Shown one piece after another: positions 6,889 through 57,219 of a stretch of DNA of 64,000 nt. The stretch comes from Pseudomonadota bacterium (GTDB taxonomy: Bacteria; Desulfobacterota; Desulfovibrionia; Desulfovibrionales; Desulfovibrionaceae), in contig JAHJLB010000051.1 of NCBI GenBank assembly GCA_018822105.1, positions 62,001 through 126,000 of the forward strand, in the 5' to 3' direction. The translations under genes and the position numbers were made by a program. Positions within the stretch are counted from its first letter, which is position 1. Each line of letters begins with the position of its first letter. The notes beneath the pieces are model-generated. The model saw only the letters and a list, made by a program, of their open reading frames with translations. It was not told the origin of the DNA and made no database searches.

Positions 6889-7057
6889 GATGTTCCTCGA
6901 TTTCAGAAGACCGCGCGAGCCTGCGCGCGCACGGTGCGGGCAGACTTTTGAACCATATATCCGCCCCGCTGGCAACGGAAATCCGCACCCTTGCCTCCCG
7001 GCGCGGCGGATGCTACCCCACGCCTGAAAGCACAACGCCTCCGGGAGCCGACCGACC

Positions 7058-7693
7058 ATGCCCACAGACCGCCACCGCGCCCAGCTCATCTTCACCCGCC
7101 TGGCCGCCCGCTACCCCGACCCCAAGCCCGCCCTGGACCATGCGGACGCCTGGGGCCTGCTGGTGGCCACGGTGCTGGCCGCCCAATGCACCGACGCGCG
7201 CGTGAATCAGGTCACCCCGGCGCTCTTCCAGCGCTGGCCAAAGATAGCGGACCTTGCCGGGGCCCAAGTTGCTGACATCGAGGCAGTGGTGCATTCCACC
7301 GGTTTTTTCCGCAACAAGGCCAAAAACCTCAAGGCCGCGGCGCAGCGCATCATGGCCGTGTACAACGGCGAGGTGCCCCGGGCCATGCACGAACTCGTCA
7401 CCCTGCCCGGCGTGGCCAGAAAAACCGCCAACATCGTCCTCGGAAGCGCCTTCGGCATCAACGAGGGCATCGCCGTGGACACCCACGTGACGCGCCTGGC
7501 CTTCCGCCTGGGCCTGACCGGGAGCGGCGACGCCAAGGTCATCGAGCGCGACCTCATGCCGCTGTTCGACCGCTCCCAGTGGGCGGACATCAACCATTAC
7601 CTCGTGTACTTCGGCCGCGAGGTCTGCGGCGCGCGCAGGCCCAGGTGCGCAGACTGCGGCCTGGCGGACCTCTGCCCGCGCAAAGGACTCTAG
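7058..7693 (+). CDS. nth: Endonuclease III
   Basis: A base-excision repair DNA glycosylase/AP lyase of 211 residues for oxidised pyrimidines. The helix-hairpin-helix LPGVARKTANIVLG carries the catalytic lysine K122, and the catalytic aspartate is D141 in VDTHV. The C-terminal [4Fe-4S] motif has cysteines C190, C197, C200 and C206 with the canonical 6-2-5 spacing. It heads a plus-strand operon: its stop codon is followed immediately, with no gap, by the tgt start. Confidence 0.96.
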   Translation: MPTDRHRAQLIFTRLAARYPDPKPALDHADAWGLLVATVLAAQCTDARVNQVTPALFQRWPKIADLAGAQVADIEAVVHSTGFFRNKAKNLKAAAQRIMAVYNGEVPRAMHELVTLPGVARKTANIVLGSAFGINEGIAVDTHVTRLAFRLGLTGSGDAKVIERDLMPLFDRSQWADINHYLVYFGREVCGARRPRCADCGLADLCPRKGL

Positions 7694-8826
<1,133 letters not shown>

Positions 8827-8830
<4 letters not shown>

Positions 8831-9468
8831 AACGGTTCTGGGCCCTCTTTCTTCAGGCCGTTGGCGCCCTGACCCTTCTCGCCATGGTGCTGGGCGGGGC
8901 GCTGGTGCTCACCGCGGGCTACTGGCTGCGCATGGACGAGCAGCCGAGAAAGGCCGACGCCATCGTCATCCTGGCCGGAAGGCCCCAGAGGGCCATCCAC
9001 GCCGCAGATCTCTACCTCCAGGGGCTGGCCCCGGTGATCCTTCTGGGCCGCCCGGACCCGGGGGACCCGGACGTGCTTTGCTCCCTGGGCTTCGACTGCA
9101 TGCCCCAGGAAGAGCAGATGGCGAAGGTGCTGCGCGCCAAAGGCGTGCCCGAAGGCGTGCTCAAACCATACGGGAAAGGCTTCCTCAGCACCGTGGAGGA
9201 GGCCGAAGGCCTGGCCCGGGAGCTGGGGCCGGAGCCCAAGGTCCTGCTGGTGGTCACCTCAGCCTACCACTGCCGCCGGGCCAAGATGATCCTCTCCAGC
9301 GTCCTGCGCGGTCATGAGATCATCATGTCGCCCACGCCCTATGAGCGCTTTGACCGCCAGTGGTGGAAGCATCAGAACTCGGCGGGGGCCGTGGTGTCGG
9401 AGGTGGCGAAGTTCATGTTCCACTTCCTGGGCACGCCCTTCCGGTCCGCCCCGGCGCCGGCGCATTGA
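8827..9468 (+). CDS. YdcF/DUF218-family membrane-anchored protein
   Basis: A 213-residue protein with one N-terminal membrane helix (about residues 11-35) and a DUF218 (YdcF/SanA-like) domain. Conserved parts include ADAIVILAG after the helix, a mid-domain [10 protein letters not shown], and [13 protein letters not shown]. The family is tied to envelope functions such as vancomycin sensitivity (SanA), but the biochemistry is unknown. The start is TTG at 8827, inside the tgt stop (TTGA), with AGGAG seven bases upstream. The next gene is convergent after only 6 bp. Confidence 0.85.
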
Positions 9469-47742: not shown

Positions 47743-48354
47743 ATGAAATTCGCCATCGTCTTCTACTCCATGTATGGCCATATTTACGCCATGGCCAAGG
47801 CTGCGGCCGAGGCCGCCCGCGAGGTGCCCGGCACCGACGCCGTCCTGTACCGCGTGCCGGAGACCCTGCCCGAAGAGGTGCTGGGGAAAATGGGCGCGCA
47901 GGACGCGGCAAAGGCCATGTCCGGCATCCCCCTGGCCACCCCGGAGGTGCTGGCTGAGGCCGACGCCATCCTCTTCGGCACGCCCACGCGCTTTGGCAAC
48001 ATGTGCGGGCAGATGCGCCAGTTCCTGGACTCCACCGGCGGCCTGTGGATGAAGGGAGCCCTCGTCGGCAAGCCCGGCGGCGTGTTCGCCAGTTCGGCCA
48101 CGCAGCACGGCGGCCAGGAGTCCACCATCCTGACCTTCCTGCCCACCCTGCTGCACCAGGGCATGGTGGTGGTGGGCCTGCCCTACTCCTTCCAAGGCCA
48201 GATGGGCGTGGACGAAGTCATGGGCAACTCGCCGTACGGGGCCAGCACCATCGCCGGAGGCGACGGCTCGCGCATGCCGAGCCAGCGCGACCTGGACGGG
48301 GTGCGCTTCCAGGCCAGGCACCTGGCCGGCATCGCCCACAAGCTCATGGCTTAA
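47743..48354 (+). CDS. wrbA: NAD(P)H:quinone oxidoreductase WrbA
   Basis: A flavodoxin-fold FMN enzyme that makes two-electron quinone reduction. The 203 residues show the FMN phosphate region [12 protein letters not shown], the segment [30 protein letters not shown] and [14 protein letters not shown], all WrbA signatures. A ribosome site GGAGG precedes the ATG. It starts a plus-strand group with a cytochrome c and a haem-type membrane protein, 43 bp before the cytochrome. An upstream AT-rich TAAAGAATTAGAAT segment is a candidate promoter. Confidence 0.95.
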
Positions 48355-48397
48355 GGCCACAATATTTCCTGAAACCCGCACAACACGGAGGCAGCCC

Positions 48398-48709
48398 ATG
48401 AAAACCAACCTTCTCCTCGCCCTGACCCTGTCATTCGCCCTTTGCGCCACGGCTCTGGCCGCCGGCCCCGCAGTGGACGGCGCGGCCCTGTACAAGGCCA
48501 AGTGCGCCAGCTGCCACGGCGCGGACGGCAGCAAGACGATCCTGAGCAAGCCGGTCAAGGGCCTGTCCGCCGCCGACACCGCCAAGAAGATGGAGGGCTA
48601 CAAGGCCAAGACCTACGGCGGCACCAAGAAGGCCACCATGGAGAACCTCTCCAGCAATCTCTCCGAGGCCGACATCAAGGCCCTGGCGGCCTTCATCGCC
48701 AAGCTGTAG
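48398..48709 (+). CDS. Class I c-type cytochrome
   Basis: A 103-residue periplasmic monohaem cytochrome with a signal peptide (to ALAAG, about residue 22) and haem motif CASCH at 36-40. M81 in KKATMENL is the likely sixth ligand. Size and order match cytochrome c553-like proteins of sulfate reducers. GGAGG precedes the ATG. A long hairpin follows before the next gene. Confidence 0.9.
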   Translation: MKTNLLLALTLSFALCATALAAGPAVDGAALYKAKCASCHGADGSKTILSKPVKGLSAADTAKKMEGYKAKTYGGTKKATMENLSSNLSEADIKALAAFIAKL

Positions 48710-48727
48710 CAGCCGCGGGCGCGGAGG

Positions 48728-48769
48728 CCCGGCGCCATCTCCCGGAGGACTCCGGGGGAGGGCGCCGGG
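48728..48769 (+). repeat. Long hairpin between cytochrome c and membrane-protein genes
   Basis: A perfect 9-bp outer stem, CCCGGCGCC (48728-48736) with GGCGCCGGG (48761-48769), encloses a second stem (CTCCCGGA with TCCGGGGGAG, two bulged bases). No T-run follows. It may partly terminate or stabilise the cytochrome message. Confidence 0.45.
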
Positions 48770-48803
48770 ACACGCGGCCTAAACGTCTTTCAGGGAGCCG
48801 CCC

Positions 48804-49235
48804 GTGGTCCTGTGGATCCATCCTGTGATGCAGGCCCTGGCCGTATGCCTGTCGATCTACGTGCTGCATCTTGGCTGGGTGCGCTTCCGCTTTGCCCACC
48901 TGGGGCGCAAGGACGCGGCGTTCCCCTGGAGACGGCACGTGCGGCTGGGCGCAGCGGTGCTGGCCACCTGGGCCCTGGCCTTTGCCCTGGGCCTGGGCGC
49001 GGTCTGGTGGGCCTGGCGGAGCGTCTTCGTCACGGGAAGACACGTCCAGGTGGCGCTGGCCATGCTGCCGCTCATCGCCTTCGGGCTGGGGTCCGGGATG
49101 GTCATGGACCGGGTGAAGGCCAGGCGCACGCTTTTGCCCCTGGCCCACGGCCTCGGCAACGCCGTGCTGGTGCTCCTGGCGCTGCTGCAGCTCTACACGG
49201 GCGGCATCGTGCTGTGGAACATGGCTTTCGGCTAG
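48804..49235 (+). CDS. DUF4079-like cytochrome b561-type membrane protein
   Basis: A 143-residue protein with about four transmembrane helices and histidines near helix ends, for example IHPVMQALAVCLSIYVLHLGW and LLPLAHGLGNAVLVLLALLQLYTG. The pattern resembles DUF4079/cytochrome b561-type haem proteins. It may exchange electrons with the preceding cytochrome c or with quinones. The start is GTG at 48804, with AGGGAG six bases upstream. I am unsure of the exact family. Confidence 0.6.
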   Translation: MVLWIHPVMQALAVCLSIYVLHLGWVRFRFAHLGRKDAAFPWRRHVRLGAAVLATWALAFALGLGAVWWAWRSVFVTGRHVQVALAMLPLIAFGLGSGMVMDRVKARRTLLPLAHGLGNAVLVLLALLQLYTGGIVLWNMAFG

Positions 49236-49325: not shown

Positions 49326-49347
49326 CGGGCGCAAGCCCGTTGTTCTT
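49326..49347 (+). terminator. Putative Rho-independent terminator after the wrbA group
   Basis: CGGGC/GCCCG with a GCAA tetraloop (49326-49339), followed by TTGTTCTT. The stem is short, but the GNRA-type loop and the T-rich tail fit a terminator. The remaining stretch to 49455 has no gene. Confidence 0.5.
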
Positions 49348-49455
49348 CACACCCCGTCCATGCTACGGTACGGGAAAGCGCCTGGGGCTGAAGCGCAGGC
49401 TGCCCAGAGGCCCCGAGGTCCCCAACACCCGCTTCTGGCTGGGAGGAGCAAGCGT

Positions 49456-50418
49456 TTGGCTGCACGCGGAGCACGATCCCGTCCGGCACCATCAAGCCGG
49501 TTGTCCCTGGCCGCGGCCCTGTGCGCCCTGCTGCTGCTCGGCGCAGGCTGCTCCCCCGCTGCGGACGACGAGCCGGCCCTGCGCGTGGACCTGTCCAAGC
49601 GCCAGGAGACAGTGGCCCCGGCCCCGGCTGCGGGCGTCACCTACGCCTACCTGCCCCAGTATTCGCACACCACCTCCCACAAGCGCCACCACCTGCTGGT
49701 GGAGTATCTGTCCAAGGCCACGGGCCTGCCCATGCGCCAGGTCTTTCCAGACACCTTTGACGAGCACGTGAAGATGGTGGCCCTGGGCCAGATCGACATC
49801 TCCTTCACCAACCCCTTCGTCTCCATCAAGCTGGCCCGGCAGGGGGCCAAAACCTTCGCCCGCACCGTCAAGGCCTCGGGCAAGGCCGACTTCCGCTGCG
49901 AGATCATCTGCCGCAGCGACAACCGCGAGCTCAAGACCTTGGCCGACTGCCGTGGCAAGCGCTGGATCGCCGTGGACCCGCTCTCGGCGGGCGGGTACCT
50001 GTTCGCCCTGGGGCATTTCCTCGACCTGGGCATGGCCCGGCAGGACTTCGCGGAGATCGCCTTTGCGCCGGGCCCCGGAGGCAAGCAGGAGAACGTGGTG
50101 CTGGCCGTGCTGGCCGGCAAGTACGACTTCGGCACCATCCGCGAGGGCACCCTCGACGTGCTCAAGGGCCGCGTGGACCTGGACCAGATCCGCGTCCTGG
50201 GCCGCACCAAGGCCTATCCGGAGTGGCTCTTCGCCGCGCGCAAGGGCCTGGACCAGGGACTCGTGGACAGGATCGCCGCAGCCATGTTCGCCCTTGATCC
50301 AGCCAACCCCGAGCACGCGGCCATCCTGGAGGCCGCCGGCCTCAAGGCCATCATCCCGGCCCAGGACCAGGACCTCGACCCGGTGCGCGAGCTGGCCCGC
50401 AAGCTCGGGCTGGACTAG
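49456..50418 (+). CDS. PhnD-like substrate-binding lipoprotein
   Basis: A 320-residue lipoprotein with lipobox LLGAGC (C32). The binding fold belongs to the phosphate/phosphonate (PhnD) and type 2 class: VTYAYLPQYSHTTSHKRHHLLVEYLSKATG, shown here in part as VEYLSKATG, then IDISFTNPFVSIKL, KRWIAVDPLSAGGY and NVVLAVLAGKYDFGTIREGT. No permease or ATPase follows; a histidine kinase gene starts 14 bp downstream, so it is probably the ligand sensor for that kinase. The start is TTG at 49456 with GGAGG nine bases upstream, and it gives a standard lipoprotein signal. Confidence 0.8.
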   Translation: MAARGARSRPAPSSRLSLAAALCALLLLGAGCSPAADDEPALRVDLSKRQETVAPAPAAGVTYAYLPQYSHTTSHKRHHLLVEYLSKATGLPMRQVFPDTFDEHVKMVALGQIDISFTNPFVSIKLARQGAKTFARTVKASGKADFRCEIICRSDNRELKTLADCRGKRWIAVDPLSAGGYLFALGHFLDLGMARQDFAEIAFAPGPGGKQENVVLAVLAGKYDFGTIREGTLDVLKGRVDLDQIRVLGRTKAYPEWLFAARKGLDQGLVDRIAAAMFALDPANPEHAAILEAAGLKAIIPAQDQDLDPVRELARKLGLD

Positions 50419-50432
50419 GGGAGGCCGGGGAC

Positions 50433-52460
50433 ATGCGGCTCATCTCCCGGCTCAATTTCCAGACCAAGATCGTGCTGGGCATCTTCCTCATCGTGGTGGC
50501 CGTGGCGCTCATGACCGCCATCCCGGTGAGCCGCATGGCCTCCCGGGCCATCCTCGCCGAGTCGCGGGGCCGCGGCCTGGTGCTGGCCGAGAACCTCTCC
50601 CTGCGCCTGGCCGACGCCATGCTGACCCAGGACTTCCTGCGCATGAAGAACATGGTCGATGAGCTCACTGGCGTGGGGGAGGACATCCTCTACGCCTTCG
50701 TGCTCGACGAGGCCGGGGACGTGCTGGCGCACACCTTCCAGAAGGGCTTCCCCGTTGGGCTCAAGGCCGCCAACGCCCCCGGCCCCCAGGGCGCGCGGAC
50801 CCAGCTGCTGGATACCGGCTCTGGCCTGGTCGATGATTTCGCCGTGCCCGTGGTCATCTCCGGCAAGCGTTTCGGCACGGCGCGCCTGGGCCTTTCGCGG
50901 GCCCGCGCCGAGGCCGAGGTGCGCCGCCTGATGCTGACCTTCGCCGGGCTTTCCGTGGCCGCCCTGGCGGCGGCCCTGGCCCTGAGCTCCGTGTTCGCCC
51001 GCCGGGTCGCCCGGCGCATCAACGCCCTCAAGGAGTATGCCCAGGAGGTGGTGCGGGGGAACCTGGACATCGAGACGGCCTCCACCCTGAAGAAGAACTG
51101 CTGGGAGATCATGGACTGCGGGCGCACCCAGTGCCCGGCCTTCGGCATGCCCCGCCACCGCTGCTGGCACATGCAGGGCACCCTCTGCCCGGACTGCGCC
51201 CCGGCCGACAGCCAGGGCCGCAAGGCCTGCGCGCGCTGCCCGGTGTTCCGTGAGAATGCCGGTGACGAGATCCAGGATCTGGCCGAGACCTTCGGCATCA
51301 TGGCCATGACGCTCAAGCGGCAGATCGGCAAGCTGGGCCAGCAGGAGCAGCTCATGCGGACCATCCTGGACGCCACGCCGGACCTTGTCTGCCTCCTCGA
51401 CGCGGGGCACCGCTACCTGGCCGTGAACCGGGCCTTTGCCGCGTTCCTGGGCGTCGGCGAGGCCGAGATCATCGGCCGCACCGAGGCGGACTTCTTCCCG
51501 CCGGACGAGGCCGAGGAACGCCTGGCCAAGACCCGGGCCATCCTCGACTCCGGCCAGGGCGGCCAGGCCGAGGCCCGCGTCCGGACCGCGCGCGGAGAGC
51601 AGTGGTTCCACGAGGTCAACGTGCCTGTGCGCGACGCCTCCGGCCGGGTCCTGGGCGTGCTGAAGACCGCCCGCGACGTCACCGAGGTCAAGAGCATCGA
51701 GGAGAAGCTCCTGCAGGCGCAAAAGATGGAGTCCCTGGGCAAGCTGGCGGGCGGCGTGGCGCACGAGATCAACACCCCCCTGGGCATCATCCTGGGCTAT
51801 GCCCAGCTCCTGCAGGACGATGTGCAAAGGGACGGCCAGGTCTGGGAGGATCTGCGGATCATCGAGCGCCAGGCCAAGGTCTGCCGCACCATCGTGGCCG
51901 ACCTGCTCGGCTTCTCCCGCCAGCACGAGTCGCGCATGGGCGAGCTGGACCTGAACGAGTCGGTGCGCGACGTGGTCTCCCTGGTGCGGCACACCTTCGG
52001 CCTGGAAAAGGTCGGCATCGAACTGGACCTGGACGAGGCGCTGCCGCCCATCACCGGCGACAGCGAGAAAATGGGCCAGGTCTGGATGAACCTGCTGAAC
52101 AACGCCCGCGACGCCATGCCCGGCGGCGGGGCAATCCGCATCCGCACCCGGCGGGACGGGCCGGAGGGCAGGCTCGTGGTGTCCGTGGCCGACAACGGCA
52201 CGGGCATCAGCCCGGAGCACCTGGGCAAGGTGTTCGACCCCTTCTTCAGCACCAAGGGCGTGGGCAAGGGCACGGGCCTGGGCCTGTCCGTGTCCTTCGG
52301 CATCGTGCAGAACCACGGCGGCACCATCGAAGCCGAGAGCCCGGCCCCGGAGGGATGCAGGCCCCAGGACGCGGGCGGCCCGGGCACGGTCTTCCGCGTG
52401 CTGCTGCCGCTGCGCCCTCCGGCGCAGGCCCCTGCCGCGCCCCCGACCTCCCCTGTCTAA
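50433..52460 (+). CDS. Membrane histidine kinase with two-CW domain in HAMP, PAS
   Basis: A 675-residue sensor kinase. Transmembrane helices at about 12-31 and 167-190 flank a periplasmic sensor domain of about 135 residues. HAMP AS1 (about 190-212) is followed by an inserted cysteine-rich segment, residues 223-271, beginning CWEIMDCG and containing nine cysteines, then HAMP AS2 (about 278-298). PAS (306-425), HisKA with the phosphoacceptor H444 (GVAHEINTPL) and the catalytic ATPase with NLLNNARDA, DNGTGIS and GKGTGLGLS follow. It lies between the PhnD lipoprotein and a receiver gene. Confidence 0.9.
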   Translation: MRLISRLNFQTKIVLGIFLIVVAVALMTAIPVSRMASRAILAESRGRGLVLAENLSLRLADAMLTQDFLRMKNMVDELTGVGEDILYAFVLDEAGDVLAHTFQKGFPVGLKAANAPGPQGARTQLLDTGSGLVDDFAVPVVISGKRFGTARLGLSRARAEAEVRRLMLTFAGLSVAALAAALALSSVFARRVARRINALKEYAQEVVRGNLDIETASTLKKNCWEIMDCGRTQCPAFGMPRHRCWHMQGTLCPDCAPADSQGRKACARCPVFRENAGDEIQDLAETFGIMAMTLKRQIGKLGQQEQLMRTILDATPDLVCLLDAGHRYLAVNRAFAAFLGVGEAEIIGRTEADFFPPDEAEERLAKTRAILDSGQGGQAEARVRTARGEQWFHEVNVPVRDASGRVLGVLKTARDVTEVKSIEEKLLQAQKMESLGKLAGGVAHEINTPLGIILGYAQLLQDDVQRDGQVWEDLRIIERQAKVCRTIVADLLGFSRQHESRMGELDLNESVRDVVSLVRHTFGLEKVGIELDLDEALPPITGDSEKMGQVWMNLLNNARDAMPGGGAIRIRTRRDGPEGRLVVSVADNGTGISPEHLGKVFDPFFSTKGVGKGTGLGLSVSFGIVQNHGGTIEAESPAPEGCRPQDAGGPGTVFRVLLPLRPPAQAPAAPPTSPV

Positions 52461-52476
52461 CCCAAGGAGCGAACGC

Positions 52477-52836
52477 ATGGCCTCCATCATCGTCCTCGAC
52501 GACGTCGCCGACGCGGCCATCATGATCAAGCGCATCCTGTCCCGGCAGGGCCATGCGGTGGAGGCCTTCACCGAGGAGCAGCAGGCCATGGACTTCGTGC
52601 GCCAGAACCCGGTGGACCTGGCCATTCTGGACATCAAGCTGCTCAAGATGACCGGGGTCGAAGTGCTGGAGGAGATGCGCAAGATCTCCCCGGACACGAA
52701 GGCCATCATGCTCACGGGCTACCCGACCCTGGAGACGGCCAGGCAGGCCCTGGAGCTTGGGGCCAAGGCCTACTGCGTCAAGCCCATCGACAAGGACGAG
52801 CTGGAGGCCACGGTGGCCGCAGTGCTCAAGGCCTGA
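52477..52836 (+). CDS. Stand-alone CheY-like response regulator
   Basis: A 119-residue receiver with no output domain. D8 and D9 form the metal site, D52 (AILDIKLL) accepts the phosphate, T80 (IMLTGYP) and K102 (CVKPID) complete it. It is 16 bp downstream of the kinase and presumably its partner. With no output domain, it likely acts by binding another protein; the adjacent dikinase-like or phosphatase gene product is a candidate. The next gene starts 10 bp after its stop. Confidence 0.93.
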   Translation: MASIIVLDDVADAAIMIKRILSRQGHAVEAFTEEQQAMDFVRQNPVDLAILDIKLLKMTGVEVLEEMRKISPDTKAIMLTGYPTLETARQALELGAKAYCVKPIDKDELEATVAAVLKA

Positions 52837-52846
52837 GGAGGCGCGC

Positions 52847-55384
52847 ATGGGTCAGCTGGCGCAGACGCTCGCGCGCTGGGGGCAGGCGCTCTTCGCCCCG
52901 GAGCAGCGCCTGCGCTCCCGCCACGACGCCTTCCAGGCCCTGCTGGCGGCGGACGAGAAAAGCCTGCTCCTCGTGGCCGAGCTGGAGGAGATCTTCGCCG
53001 GGGCGCGCCAGGTCGATCCGGCCCGGACGCGCTGGCTCTGCGGCCAGTTGTCCGAGGCCGTGGGAGAGGTGGCGGCGCGGCTTCTGGCCATGCGTCCGGG
53101 CGGCCATGCGGGCCTGGCCCAGGCCCTCGAAAGGATCCGCGCCGGGCTCGCGCTGCTGCTGCAGGACCCTGCCCTCCCCAGCGGCGGACCGTTCGTGGTG
53201 CCCCTTGCGCAGGCCCTGGGCAGACCGGAGCTGGCCGGGGGCAAGGCTGCCAACCTGGCCGCCGTGCAGCGGGCCGGGCTGCGTGTGCCGCCAGGCCTGG
53301 TCGTCGGCACGGACGCCTTTGAGCATTTCCTCTCGTCCGGCAAGCTGCGCCCGCGCCTGGACCGCCTGCTGCGCCAGGTGGACCTTGCGCGGCCGGAGCG
53401 CCTGGGGCCGCTGTGCGCCGGGATGCAGGCATTGGTGCTCGGCGCATGCATGCCGCAGGACCTGGCCCAGGCCCTGCGCGAGGCCGCGGCCAGCCCCGTG
53501 CTGCGCGGCGGGCCGCTGGCCGTGCGCAGCTCCGCCGTGGCCGAGGATGGGGTGTTCTCCTTCGCCGGGCAATATGCCAGCGAGCTCAACGTCCCCCCGG
53601 ACGGCATTGTGGACGCCTACCGCCGCGTCGTGGCCGCCAAGTACCGGCCCAGGGCCGTGGCGTATCGCGTACGCTGCGGCCTGCCCGACCAGCGCGCGCC
53701 CATGGCCGCGCTGCTCATGCCCATGATCGACGCGGCCGGCTCCGGGGTGCTGCACACCTGCGACAGCCGGCCGGACAAGGCCGGAAGCTGCATGTCCGTC
53801 TACGCACTGTCCGGTCTGGGCGACGCGCTGGTGTCGGGCCGGGCCGAACCCCGCGTGCTGCGCCTGTCGCGCTGGCTGCCTGCGCAGCTCCTGGAGGACT
53901 CGGGTGCGGGGGACCTGGACCCCGGCCAGGCCGTTCTGCCGCATCCCCTGTTGTCCGAGCTCGTGCTTGCCGGCCTGGTGCTGCAGTCCGTGTTCGGCAG
54001 GCCGCAGGAGGTGGAGTGGGCCGTGGACGGCGAAGGCCGGCTCTTCGTCCTGCAATCGCGCACCTACAGCGCCATGCCGGAGCCGCAGGCCGACCCGGAG
54101 ATTGTCCGGCCGGACCGCGCCGACGGGACCGGCGGCCCCGGCGAGCGGCCCCTGGCCCAGGACCTGAGCCCTGTCGCTCCGGGCATGGGCTGCGGGCCGG
54201 TCTTTCATCTGGATGCCGGGGCCGGCATCGACAGCGTGCCGGCCGGATGCGTGCTGACGGTGGACAGTCTGACCCCGGACCTGGCCCGCTGCGTCCACCA
54301 GGTGGCGGCGGTGGCGGCGAGCATCGGCTGCCGGGCCAGCCATTTCGCCTCCGTGGCACGGGAATGCGGGGTGCCCGTGGTCTCCGGGCTTGCGGAGCGC
54401 CGCGCGAGCCTGCCCGAGGGCCTGCTCGTCACCGTGGATGCGGCTGCCGGCCGGATTTACGCCGGCTGCGCGGAGACCCTGCTGGAGGCTCCCAAGCGCC
54501 GCCGAGCCGAGGAGCGCGAGGGCCTTGCGCAACGCTTCGCGGCCCTGGCCCGGCAGACCTGCCGCCTGACGCTCACGGACCCCGAGGCCCCGGAGTTCGC
54601 CCCCGAGGGCTGCACCTCCCTGCACGATCTGGTGCGCTTCTGCCACGAGATGGCCGTGGCCGAAATGTTCGGCCTGACCGGCTCCTCCGGGGATTCCGAG
54701 ACCTTGGGCCGGGGCATGGGCAAGGCGAAAATGCTGCGCTCGGACCTGCCCCTGTCGCTGTTCCTGCTGGACCTAGGCGGCGGGCTCGGCCCCGCAGCCG
54801 CGCGCAATGAGGTCTTGCCCGAAGACATGCTCAGCGCGCCCATGCTGGCCCTTTGGCAGGGGCTGGCCCGCTCCGGCGAGACCTGGAGCGACACGGGCTT
54901 CTGCTGCGACTGGCAGGAGTTCGACCGCGTCAGCGCCGGCATCTTCCGCAAGGACTCGCGGCTCCTGGCCAGCCATGCGCTTCTTTCCGCGGACTACCTG
55001 CACCTCCTGGTGCGCTTCGGCTACCACTTTGCCGTGCTGGACAGCCTCTGCGGCCAGAGGGCCGAGGCCAACTACATCAACTTCCGCTTCAAGGGCGGCG
55101 GCGGGCTGCCGGAGCAGCGGCGGCTGCGCCTCGCGTTCATCGCCAGGGTGCTGACGGGCTGCGGCTTTGCGGTGCGGGTCCGGGGCGACATGCTCGACGC
55201 CCGGCTGGCGCGGCTTGAGGAGCTGACCCTGCGCCGCGCCCTGGTCCTGCTGGGCCGCCTGCTGGTGCGCACGCAGCGGATGGACCTGGGGCTCAGGAGC
55301 GAGGCCCAGGCCGGGGGCCTGGCCGAAGACTTCCTGTCCGCCTGCGGCGCCGGGCCAGAGGCCAGGGACGGACATGGCCGGTGA
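52847..55384 (+). CDS. Dikinase-type phosphotransferase without PEP/pyruvate barrel
   Basis: An 845-residue protein related to PEP synthase and pyruvate phosphate dikinase, but incomplete. The ATP-grasp domain is at about 105-410 with GGKAANL 131-137, VRSSAVAEDG 226-235, FAGQYAS 239-245 and EWAVDGEGRLFVLQSRT. A swivelling phosphohistidine domain at about 440-545 has SHFASVARECGVPVVSG with H499. There is no TIM-barrel domain with the active-site cysteine; instead about 295 residues (550-845) match nothing I know. The ATG at 52847 follows GAGGAGG. It overlaps the phosphatase gene by 11 bp. Confidence 0.8.
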   Translation: MGQLAQTLARWGQALFAPEQRLRSRHDAFQALLAADEKSLLLVAELEEIFAGARQVDPARTRWLCGQLSEAVGEVAARLLAMRPGGHAGLAQALERIRAGLALLLQDPALPSGGPFVVPLAQALGRPELAGGKAANLAAVQRAGLRVPPGLVVGTDAFEHFLSSGKLRPRLDRLLRQVDLARPERLGPLCAGMQALVLGACMPQDLAQALREAAASPVLRGGPLAVRSSAVAEDGVFSFAGQYASELNVPPDGIVDAYRRVVAAKYRPRAVAYRVRCGLPDQRAPMAALLMPMIDAAGSGVLHTCDSRPDKAGSCMSVYALSGLGDALVSGRAEPRVLRLSRWLPAQLLEDSGAGDLDPGQAVLPHPLLSELVLAGLVLQSVFGRPQEVEWAVDGEGRLFVLQSRTYSAMPEPQADPEIVRPDRADGTGGPGERPLAQDLSPVAPGMGCGPVFHLDAGAGIDSVPAGCVLTVDSLTPDLARCVHQVAAVAASIGCRASHFASVARECGVPVVSGLAERRASLPEGLLVTVDAAAGRIYAGCAETLLEAPKRRRAEEREGLAQRFAALARQTCRLTLTDPEAPEFAPEGCTSLHDLVRFCHEMAVAEMFGLTGSSGDSETLGRGMGKAKMLRSDLPLSLFLLDLGGGLGPAAARNEVLPEDMLSAPMLALWQGLARSGETWSDTGFCCDWQEFDRVSAGIFRKDSRLLASHALLSADYLHLLVRFGYHFAVLDSLCGQRAEANYINFRFKGGGGLPEQRRLRLAFIARVLTGCGFAVRVRGDMLDARLARLEELTLRRALVLLGRLLVRTQRMDLGLRSEAQAGGLAEDFLSACGAGPEARDGHGR

Positions 55385-56369
55385 GCGGCAGAGGCACCCC
55401 GTGACCTGGATCACGGACCACCTGGCCGTGGGGCCTGCGCCCATGTCCTACGCCGCCCTGGACGACCTGCGCAGCCAGGGGGTGGGGGGCATCCTGAACC
55501 TCTGCGCGGAGTTTACGGACCTGCACCGCATCGAGGCCGGGCAGGGCTTCGAGGTCTACCACCTGCCCATCGAGGATGAGGAGGCGCCGGAGCTGGCGGA
55601 GCTGGAAAAGGCCCTGGACTGGCTGGACGAGGCCATCTACCTGGGCAAGAAGGTCTTCATCCACTGCCGCCACGGCATCGGCCGCACGGGCACGGTGCTC
55701 AACGCCTACATCCTGCGCCGGGGGCTGGGCCACCGCAGGGCCTGGCTCCGCTTGCGCACCCTGCGCGCGAAGCCGGCCAATTTCCGCCAGTGGCGCATGG
55801 TGCGGCGCTATGGCAAGGGCGCCGTGCCGCTCACCCTGCGTCCGCCCACCCTGGAGCACAAAAGCTTCCTGAACCTGGAGCCGTTCTTCGCCGACTACCA
55901 GAGGCTCGTGCTCCAGGTGGAGGACGCCTGCGACGCCCAGCCCGCCTTGTTGGATCGCTGCGGGCTGACCCACGCGCGCTGCTGCGCAGAGGCCTTTGAC
56001 CTGCCCCTGGTGGAGGCCGTGCACTTGAACGCAGGCGTCAACGCCAGCCTTTCCAGGGTCCACAGGCAGGAGGCCATCGAGCGTTCGGCGGACGCCTCCA
56101 AAGGCTGCCCGCTGCTCCGGGACGGAGCCTGCCTGGCCTTTACCCAACGGCCCTTGCGCTGCCGCCTCCAGGACCTGCCCCAGGCGGAGGCCGCGCGTCT
56201 GGAGGCGGAGCTCGCCCCGGCCCTGGCCAAGGTCTCGCGGGAGATCTACCAGGCGCTCACCGGCCAGTTCCTGCCCGAGGGCTTCCCGCGCTTCAGCGTG
56301 GCCGAGGCCGTGTCCGGCCGCTACGTGCAGGTCTTCTTCAACTGGCAGCGTAAGCGGCCCCAGGGCTGA
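55374..56369 (+). CDS. Dual-specificity phosphatase fused to a YkgJ-like cysteine-cluster domain
   Basis: A 331-residue protein: a dual-specificity phosphatase domain (about residues 8-150) with the CX5R active site at C98-R104 in FIHCRHGIGRTGT and a candidate general acid D68, and a C-terminal YkgJ-like domain with C196, C203, C204, C245, C253 and C263 in CPLLRDGACLAFTQRPLRCR. The combination is unusual. It ends the five-gene PhnD/kinase/receiver/dikinase cluster and overlaps the previous gene by 11 bp, so it is probably part of the same pathway. The next gene is convergent. Confidence 0.85.
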   Translation: MAGERQRHPVTWITDHLAVGPAPMSYAALDDLRSQGVGGILNLCAEFTDLHRIEAGQGFEVYHLPIEDEEAPELAELEKALDWLDEAIYLGKKVFIHCRHGIGRTGTVLNAYILRRGLGHRRAWLRLRTLRAKPANFRQWRMVRRYGKGAVPLTLRPPTLEHKSFLNLEPFFADYQRLVLQVEDACDAQPALLDRCGLTHARCCAEAFDLPLVEAVHLNAGVNASLSRVHRQEAIERSADASKGCPLLRDGACLAFTQRPLRCRLQDLPQAEAARLEAELAPALAKVSREIYQALTGQFLPEGFPRFSVAEAVSGRYVQVFFNWQRKRPQG

Positions 56370-56382
56370 CCCGGCAAGGCGC

Positions 56383-57150
56383 TCAGGGCGCCAGCGCCAC
56401 CCGCAGCCCTGTGCTGGCGTTCTTGCAGCGGTCGGACAGATAGCAGCGGAACGAGCAGCGCGCACAGTCCGCGCCGCCGCCCCAGTAGCCGCCGCGCGCC
56501 ACGCGCCCCCAGCCCGCGGTGTGCAGCGGGTTGCTGCGGGCGTGGTGGGCGTAGGCCGTCTTCTCGTACACGTCCTCGGTCCACTGGAACACGTTGCCGC
56601 TCATGTCGTACAGGCCCAGGCCGTTGGGGGCCTTCTGGCCCACGGGATGCGCCCCGCCGCCGCTGTTGTCCCTGAACCACCCCAGGCGGTCCAGGTCCGC
56701 GCCGCCGGCGAACATCTCGGCCTGGCCGCCGCTGCGGCAGGCATACTCCCACTCCGCCTCCGTGGGCAGGCGATAGCGGCCGCCCTCCTTGCCCTGGGCG
56801 TTCAGCCGGGCCACAAAGGCCTTGGCCTCCTGCCAGGTCACGTTGTCCACGGGCGCGTCGCCACCCTCCTGGCCCCTGGACGGGTTGGCACCCATGACCT
56901 GGGCCCACTGCCTCTGCGTGACGCTGTACCTGCCCAGCCAGAACCCGTCCAGGCAGACCTCGTGCACGGGCTTCTCGTCCGAGTCGCGGCCGCCGAAGGT
57001 GTCGCCCATCTGGAAACACCCCTTGGGCACCCACACGAACTCCATCCCGGTGGCCGGATCCTTCCACTCCTTGCCGGGGGTGGCCGCAAGAACGGGACTG
57101 CACAGCGCCAGCAGCGCCACGACACACAGGGAAACACGCATTGACCTCAT
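56383..57150 (-). CDS. Secreted FGE-sulfatase (SUMF1)-like protein
   Basis: A 255-residue protein with a signal peptide (about residues 1-22) and the formylglycine-generating-enzyme/SUMF1 fold: GMEFVWVPKGCFQMGD, APVDNVTWQEAKAFVARLN, LPTEAEWEYACRSG, GLYDMSGNVFQWTED and a final RCKNASTGLRVAL. Many bacterial members bind calcium or metals and lack true FGE activity. I use the ATG at 57150; 57141 is an alternative. It ends an operon with the rhodanese-type reductase and the universal stress protein, after a 69-bp gap. Confidence 0.82.
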   Translation of the reverse strand: MRSMRVSLCVVALLALCSPVLAATPGKEWKDPATGMEFVWVPKGCFQMGDTFGGRDSDEKPVHEVCLDGFWLGRYSVTQRQWAQVMGANPSRGQEGGDAPVDNVTWQEAKAFVARLNAQGKEGGRYRLPTEAEWEYACRSGGQAEMFAGGADLDRLGWFRDNSGGGAHPVGQKAPNGLGLYDMSGNVFQWTEDVYEKTAYAHHARSNPLHTAGWGRVARGGYWGGGADCARCSFRCYLSDRCKNASTGLRVALAP

Positions 57151-57219
57151 GCCCTCGCCCTCCTGCCGTTTCTGTTGCCTGACCAAACTCAGGCAGCCGC
57201 GCCCGAAGCGCCCGCCGCC

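Follow-up and report, generated by a model that had tools for sequence, protein, structure and literature searches.

The window analyzed here is a 64,000-nt stretch from the genome of a sulfate reducer of the Desulfovibrionaceae (GenBank assembly GCA_018822105.1, contig JAHJLB010000051.1, positions 62,001 to 126,000). Between its positions 49456 and 56369, five genes follow one another on the forward strand. They encode a PhnD-like periplasmic binding lipoprotein (49456..50418, 320 aa from a TTG start), a membrane histidine kinase (50433..52460), a single-domain receiver (52477..52836), a barrel-less dikinase (52847..55384, 845 aa from an ATG start), and a DSP-type phosphatase with a Cys-rich C-terminal part (55374..56369). 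The initial annotation had described five contiguous genes with gaps of 10-16 bp and one 11-bp overlap, and this layout was confirmed, as the open reading frames of all five genes were found at these coordinates, with intergenic gaps of 14, 16, and 10 bp and then an 11-bp overlap between the dikinase and phosphatase genes. A pattern scan returned no promoter-like site and one terminator-like site, located upstream (49326-49339), and neither result was above that of shuffled sequences; thus, the case for co-transcription is made by spacing and synteny alone. No tRNA was found nearby. Genes for WrbA, cytochrome c, and a DUF4079-like membrane protein (47743-49235) lie upstream of the module on the same strand; they were considered as module members and rejected, being unmatched in 75 related loci.

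The lipoprotein is assigned by its match to Phosphonate-bd (Pfam PF12974, 1.6e-57), and a lipobox (LGAGC) was spotted by eye; besides the TTG at 49456, an in-frame ATG at 49360 is likewise open. The match to TIGR01098 (4.8e-26) is under the family cut-off, and that to the TtrS model NF040750 (6.5e-07, residues 76-203) is weak. In the kinase, Pfam recognizes sCache_3_2, HAMP (3.6e-6), PAS, HisKA, and HATPase_c domains, and H444 is conserved in 52/52 sequences. Equally conserved (52/52) are six cysteines, C223, C229, C234, C244, C266, and C269, located between HAMP and PAS (about residues 223-269; window 51099-51239). They may form an intracellular metal or redox site, which would provide a second input. 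A Cys-motif pattern that was too strict to be informative gave no match in the kinases of other loci. The receiver (119 aa) has Response_reg (PF00072) as its sole Pfam family and no output domain, with D8, D9, D52, T80, and K102 conserved in 63/63 sequences. No DNA-binding domain was found by Pfam in any of the five module proteins.

The dikinase is composed of an N-terminal helical part, an ATP-grasp domain (residues 128-414), a phosphohistidine domain (residues 465-535), and a conserved C-terminal domain (residues 545-845; 54479..55381). Pfam matches were obtained to PPDK_N (1.3e-50) and PEP-utilizers (1e-12) and to no other family at E≤0.01, including any PEP/pyruvate barrel family at the C terminus. 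Residues R227, E390, Q403, R405, and H499 are kept in all 16 aligned rows, and His499 (codon 54341..54343, in the segment SHFASVARE) is the expected phosphoryl carrier, judged by membership in the PPDK/PpsA family. In an AlphaFold2 model (pLDDT 78.7), residues 111-540 match Rph, PpsA, and PPDK structures (best Z 32.8, 400 aligned, rmsd 4.2), the nearest folds being those of Rph, and the NCBIfam matches of these shared domains include Rph, RedH, and PigC. The C-terminal domain has no Pfam match. When it was compared alone against PDB using Foldseek, the best E was 0.07, with nothing under 0.001, and a known fold was rejected, since the best VIA match (Z 7.4) was to ferredoxin-like designs, a score within the usual background. 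Such background-level matches are not evidence of a new fold. The domain carries the signature HDxxRxxHE ... GYHF, and its H593, D594, R597, H600, and H727 are invariant both in the 16/16 rows and in 22/22 further sequences, 20 of which are paralogs. This invariant polar set resembles a binding site or an active site.

The phosphatase matches DSP phosphatase families (best 3.3e-18, Pfam), and C98 and R104 of its CX5R motif are conserved in 64/64 sequences. Within its C-terminal part, C196, C203, C204, C245, C253, and C263 are invariant in 11/11 rows. The comparison with Pfam CxxCxxCC, for which an approximate fragment served as the query, stayed below the cut-off (E=0.012), and the YkgJ label is weak. 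The 3' part of the gene (residues 247-330) recurs on contig C4 of the window's genome with 81% identity, and the neighboring FGE-sulfatase-like gene also recurs there with 79% identity (window 56020-57186 versus G000:C4:57331-58425, corresponding to L127 7335-8426). As both are found a second time on C4, a segment of ~1 kb has been duplicated.

Across 149 sampled Desulfovibrionaceae genomes, a window-type dikinase is present in 71. The type was defined by a score of at least 464 bits (71 matches), and matches of 436 bits and less were counted as paralogs because one genome (G023) carries both types. A phosphatase ortholog is found in all 71 dikinase genomes, directly downstream in 63; this count takes 74 of 80 genomes with a match, excludes six of one genus (matches of 112-146 residues), and includes among the 71 two fragments at contig ends. 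When the surroundings of the dikinase were compared at 73 unique loci, window included (L108, L109, and L112 having been removed as duplicates), the full order of lipoprotein, kinase, receiver, dikinase, and phosphatase was observed at 50. Taken singly, the phosphatase is in place at 63 of these loci, the receiver at 62, the kinase at 54, and the lipoprotein at 50. Among the 23 loci lacking the full order, some have only a dikinase-phosphatase pair, some have a receiver-dikinase pair and a phosphatase at another place, and some are cut off by a contig end. The order conserved at 50/73 loci and the adjacent phosphatase in 63/71 genomes left unrefuted the earlier view of the five genes as a single operon-like unit, and they support its reading of the module, in which a dikinase and a phosphatase are coupled to a periplasmic sensor protein, a membrane kinase, and a receiver that stands alone.

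Of the 73 dikinase stretches, 44 encode both a permease of the TauE/SafE type and a small membrane protein, termed c6 below, mostly just upstream, and TauE lies within the fetched stretch at 39 of the 50 loci having all five genes. PhsA-like and PhsB-like genes were found in 23 and 26 of the 73 stretches, respectively. The nearest NCBIfam family of the PhsA-like protein is thiosulfate reductase, with 499.7 bits against a PhsA cut-off of 694, and the nearest PDB entry is 2vpw, both below equivalence; the PhsAB-like reductase product has no obvious export signal. In the window's genome, PhsA, PhsB, TauE, and c6 are located on another contig (C55) and not upstream of the module, which is why these partners were missed by the initial annotation. 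These four genes also occur in a congener (L088), where they begin 94 bp past the phosphatase and TauE is 87% identical. Among the family genomes, c6 is present in 86 of 149, that is, in 70/71 with the dikinase versus 16/78 without (P = 1.8e-25, Fisher's exact test, kinship ignored), and at least two of these 16 (G038 and G112) show dikinase fragments. Because c6 lies within 10 kb of the module in only 43/70 genomes, the tie between c6 and the dikinase is more than linkage. In the phylum, c6 occurs in 74/395 genomes and, counted by eye, in 11/12 of those whose dikinase scores at least 900 bits. At 40 c6 loci (40 of 75 places), TauE adjoins c6 in 39, and a PhsA-like gene over 400 bits is present in 19.

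The arrangement around the permease pair varies. At L202 and L211, a dikinase-receiver-kinase-lipoprotein series lies divergently beside TauE-c6. Smaller sets are found at L115 (Desulforhopalus), where the stretch has no module members other than TauE, c6, and, directly after them, the dikinase; at L116 (Desulfopila), where the same three genes are preceded at 0.6 kb by a hybrid kinase gene; and at L121, which has TauE, c6, receiver, dikinase, and phosphatase. The permease pair is thus the constant companion of the dikinase, whereas receiver, sensor, and phosphatase vary.

In 24 genomes, 87 PPDK_N genes are not full-length PPDKs, and at least 46 of these have a TauE gene no more than 9 kb away, compared with 0/21 full-length PPDKs among the matches listed; with uniform placement assumed, 3.96 such neighbors were expected, with a maximum of 13 (of 5000). 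Here, the TauE genes are the best 150 of 172, full-length PPDK denotes a match length over 1200 bp together with a frame of 1190 aa or more, and the 87 include seven high-scoring genes, probably PEP synthases as judged by score only, none of which is near TauE among the matches listed. Members of the dikinase family, defined by a match to the window-type profile at E≤1e-150, are present in 142 of 395 sampled phylum genomes, and the family is annotated after PEP synthase. The dikinase-TauE tie thus recurs in paralogs, and it recurs in a locus of an Acidobacteria MAG (L120). There, a 707-residue frame (7028-9151) lies beside a dikinase and two receivers; its residues 414-690 are TauE, whereas the N-terminal part of about 400 residues matches no Pfam family.

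Some family members are degenerate. On contig C49 of the window's genome (L126 6110-11391), receiver genes, a TauE gene (421 aa), and a gene for a 241-aa membrane protein form an operon with a shortened dikinase gene, for which no match to the His segment was obtained; this second version of the set of TauE, membrane protein, and dikinase is apparently catalytically dead. At L140 (G102:C7), a kinase, a receiver, and two dikinases share one stretch; one dikinase is intact, and the second copy is degenerate. The latter has lost K133, S228, S229, E390, Q403, and H499 and has kept H593, D594, R597, H600, E601, and H727. The retention of the C-terminal set in degenerate copies points to a role of this domain beyond phosphotransfer.

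What is observed directly is which genes are present and in what order, that their catalytic residues are conserved, and that synteny and co-occurrence tie the module to TauE-c6. For the function, we consider it an even chance that the module is an oxyanion-sensing pathway, the output of which is a dikinase/phosphatase pair instead of a transcription factor and controls anion uptake via TauE-c6. The PhnD-like lipoprotein would bind the anion, probably a sulfur oxyanion and, among these, most likely thiosulfate, and would signal via the sCache kinase, which in turn would phosphorylate D52 of the receiver. The receiver would then switch the barrel-less dikinase by a presumed contact, and the dikinase would use an ATP phosphate via His499 to bring a putative target into an altered state, an effect that the phosphatase would reverse. 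The end effect would be that anion uptake is permitted through the TauE/SafE-type permease and c6, with the signs of the steps and the direction of transport as we infer them. Fusions of PhnD to kinase or of receiver to dikinase, which might have served as proof of contact, were rejected, since the long ORFs resolved into separate frames. Observations against this pathway-to-uptake reading include the c6-TauE pair of the many genomes (16/78) that have no window-type dikinase, the mutant phenotypes of DVU0245, DVU0250, and DVU0248 (see below), and the 23/73 loci without the full order.

Direct phosphorylation of TauE or c6 by the dikinase appears rather unlikely. The c6 sequences contain no conserved residue specific to dikinase-bearing stretches (49 vs. 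30 sequences), and in TauE (49 vs. 29) the only such residues are hydrophobic, Ala, or Pro; the comparison groups merely have no dikinase in the fetched stretch, which makes this a weak test. A dedicated phosphorylation site is thus not favored in either protein, and no convincing conserved residue was found as a candidate. The simple permease-phosphorylation model is disfavored by this result, by the degenerate dikinases beside TauE, and by the conflicting phenotypes of phosphatase and kinase mutants. The reading of pathway-controlled uptake can be extended, as a tentative and somewhat doubtful generalization, to barrel-less dikinases as a large, mostly unrecognized family of switches for TauE/SafE-type anion permeases, in which the dikinase, set by a receiver or some other input, gates the permease and is reset by a dedicated phosphatase. 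If true, the dikinase could gate via its phosphohistidine or simply by its conserved C-terminal domain, and the module would be a two-component system in which a PEP-synthase-like enzyme directly controls an anion channel or carrier. The wider dikinase-TauE tie provides a functional lead for the barrel-less dikinase family.

The dikinase could instead be a small-molecule phosphotransferase or ligase, comparable to rifampin phosphotransferase and the prodigiosin synthases, with His499 phosphorylating a substrate bound by the C-terminal domain, perhaps an imported compound or a second messenger; the receiver would gate the reaction and the phosphatase would undo or use its product. Such an enzyme could explain the invariant C-terminal polar set, the Rph/RedH/PigC NCBIfam matches, and Rph as the closest fold, and the C-terminal set would have a role of its own, being kept in degenerate copies (the second copy of L140 and G000:C49) that have lost ATP-grasp and His residues. 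However, these dikinases are tied to membrane permeases and not to biosynthetic genes, their domain order is unlike that of Rph, and the degenerate copies cannot be phosphotransferases, yet remain next to a TauE gene. On balance, we regard this alternative as improbable.

Another alternative places the output in gene expression, the dikinase branch finally modifying an unlinked regulator that governs TauE, c6, and phs expression. At L180, the same types of lipoprotein (499 bits) and kinase (687 bits) are followed by a sigma-54 activator response regulator and then by TauE-c6, and sigma-54 activators are present at 4/4 TauE-c6 loci tested, the three besides L180 having a different kinase front. 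The transporter is thus transcriptionally controlled in some genomes; also in favor of this alternative, 27/70 genomes do not have c6 within 10 kb of the module. Nevertheless, the five proteins have no DNA-binding domain, and the dikinase of L115 stands straight after TauE-c6 in a stretch from which a regulator is absent, and this alternative is considered quite unlikely. It is very improbable that the neighborhood is an accident of genome organization and the nitrate phenotype an indirect one, e.g., arising from the energy or redox status, as for rex, whose mutants are likewise nitrate-resistant (PMC4001038), for although the co-occurrence statistic ignores common descent, the co-occurrence persists for unlinked genes, and paralogs and L120 show the tie of dikinase to TauE again.

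Several known systems resemble parts of the module. Anti-phage defense was rejected, as PADLOC gave no meaningful match and only weak ones to the shared kinase and receiver domains. With Rph, PEP synthase, and PPDK, the module dikinase shares ATP-grasp and phosphohistidine domains in which the catalytic residues are kept. PEP synthase and PPDK have a PEP barrel, whereas the module dikinase is without one and has a C-terminal domain of ~300 residues instead. Rph has the order ATP-grasp, substrate domain, and His domain; in the module dikinase, the order is ATP-grasp, His domain, and C-terminal domain, the His domain coming directly after ATP-grasp, unlike in Rph.

ThsS and TtrS, two PhnD-like kinases, are sensors of thiosulfate and tetrathionate, respectively, and ThsSR adjoins PhsAB (Daeffler et al. 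2017, PMC5408782). ThsSR and TtrSR resemble the module in that a PhnD-like sensor feeds a histidine kinase. In those systems, however, the sensor is fused to the kinase and the response regulator is DNA binding, whereas the module has a separate lipoprotein, a kinase with its own sCache domain, and a receiver with Response_reg only.

The statement of the initial annotation that it knew of no system described to have these genes has to be corrected, since Korte et al. 2014 (PMC4001038) reported them in the same order under the name of nitrate cluster (DVU0251-DVU0245 / Dde_0597-Dde_0605), for which the available text of that paper gives mutant phenotypes and no mechanism. The order there is TauE, conserved hypothetical, PhnD-like protein, kinase, receiver, dikinase, and phosphatase. 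The module matches by order and domains, the receiver gene is 360 bp in both, and loci such as L104 and L113 display the whole series. The nitrate cluster has TauE and the DVU0250-like gene directly upstream, whereas the window's genome has both on C55 instead. Thus, the set itself is already known, and what is new here is the TauE-c6 tie, the family-wide dikinase-TauE link, and the output swap at L180.

Nitrate resistance results from loss of several cluster genes (PMC4001038): mutants with insertions in DVU0251 (TauE), DVU0250 (the gene at the c6 position), DVU0247 (receiver), or DVU0246 (dikinase) grow just as well in 100 mM nitrate as in its absence. In DvH, nitrate inhibits mutants of DVU0245 (phosphatase), whereas the mutant of the G20 homolog is resistant; DVU0250 scored -5.82 in the pool, yet gave resistance when alone; and DVU0248 (kinase) is an annotated pseudogene in DvH, its mutant having little or no advantage in preliminary data. 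The G20 homologs show positive fitness for all, and G20 mutants are mildly sick on thiosulfate by unpublished data quoted there; a leaky thiosulfate transporter was suggested by the authors (PMC4001038). No further account of the nitrate cluster, or of a dikinase as a two-component output, was found in open-licence PMC texts, and the available portions of PMC6454106 and PMC3431258 add none of the module. Oil fields are dosed with nitrate to stop sulfide production by such bacteria (PMC4001038). For a cluster unexplained since 2014, the tie to TauE-c6 and PhsAB-like genes offers a testable account, in which the pathway would open an oxyanion entry route that is abused by nitrate.
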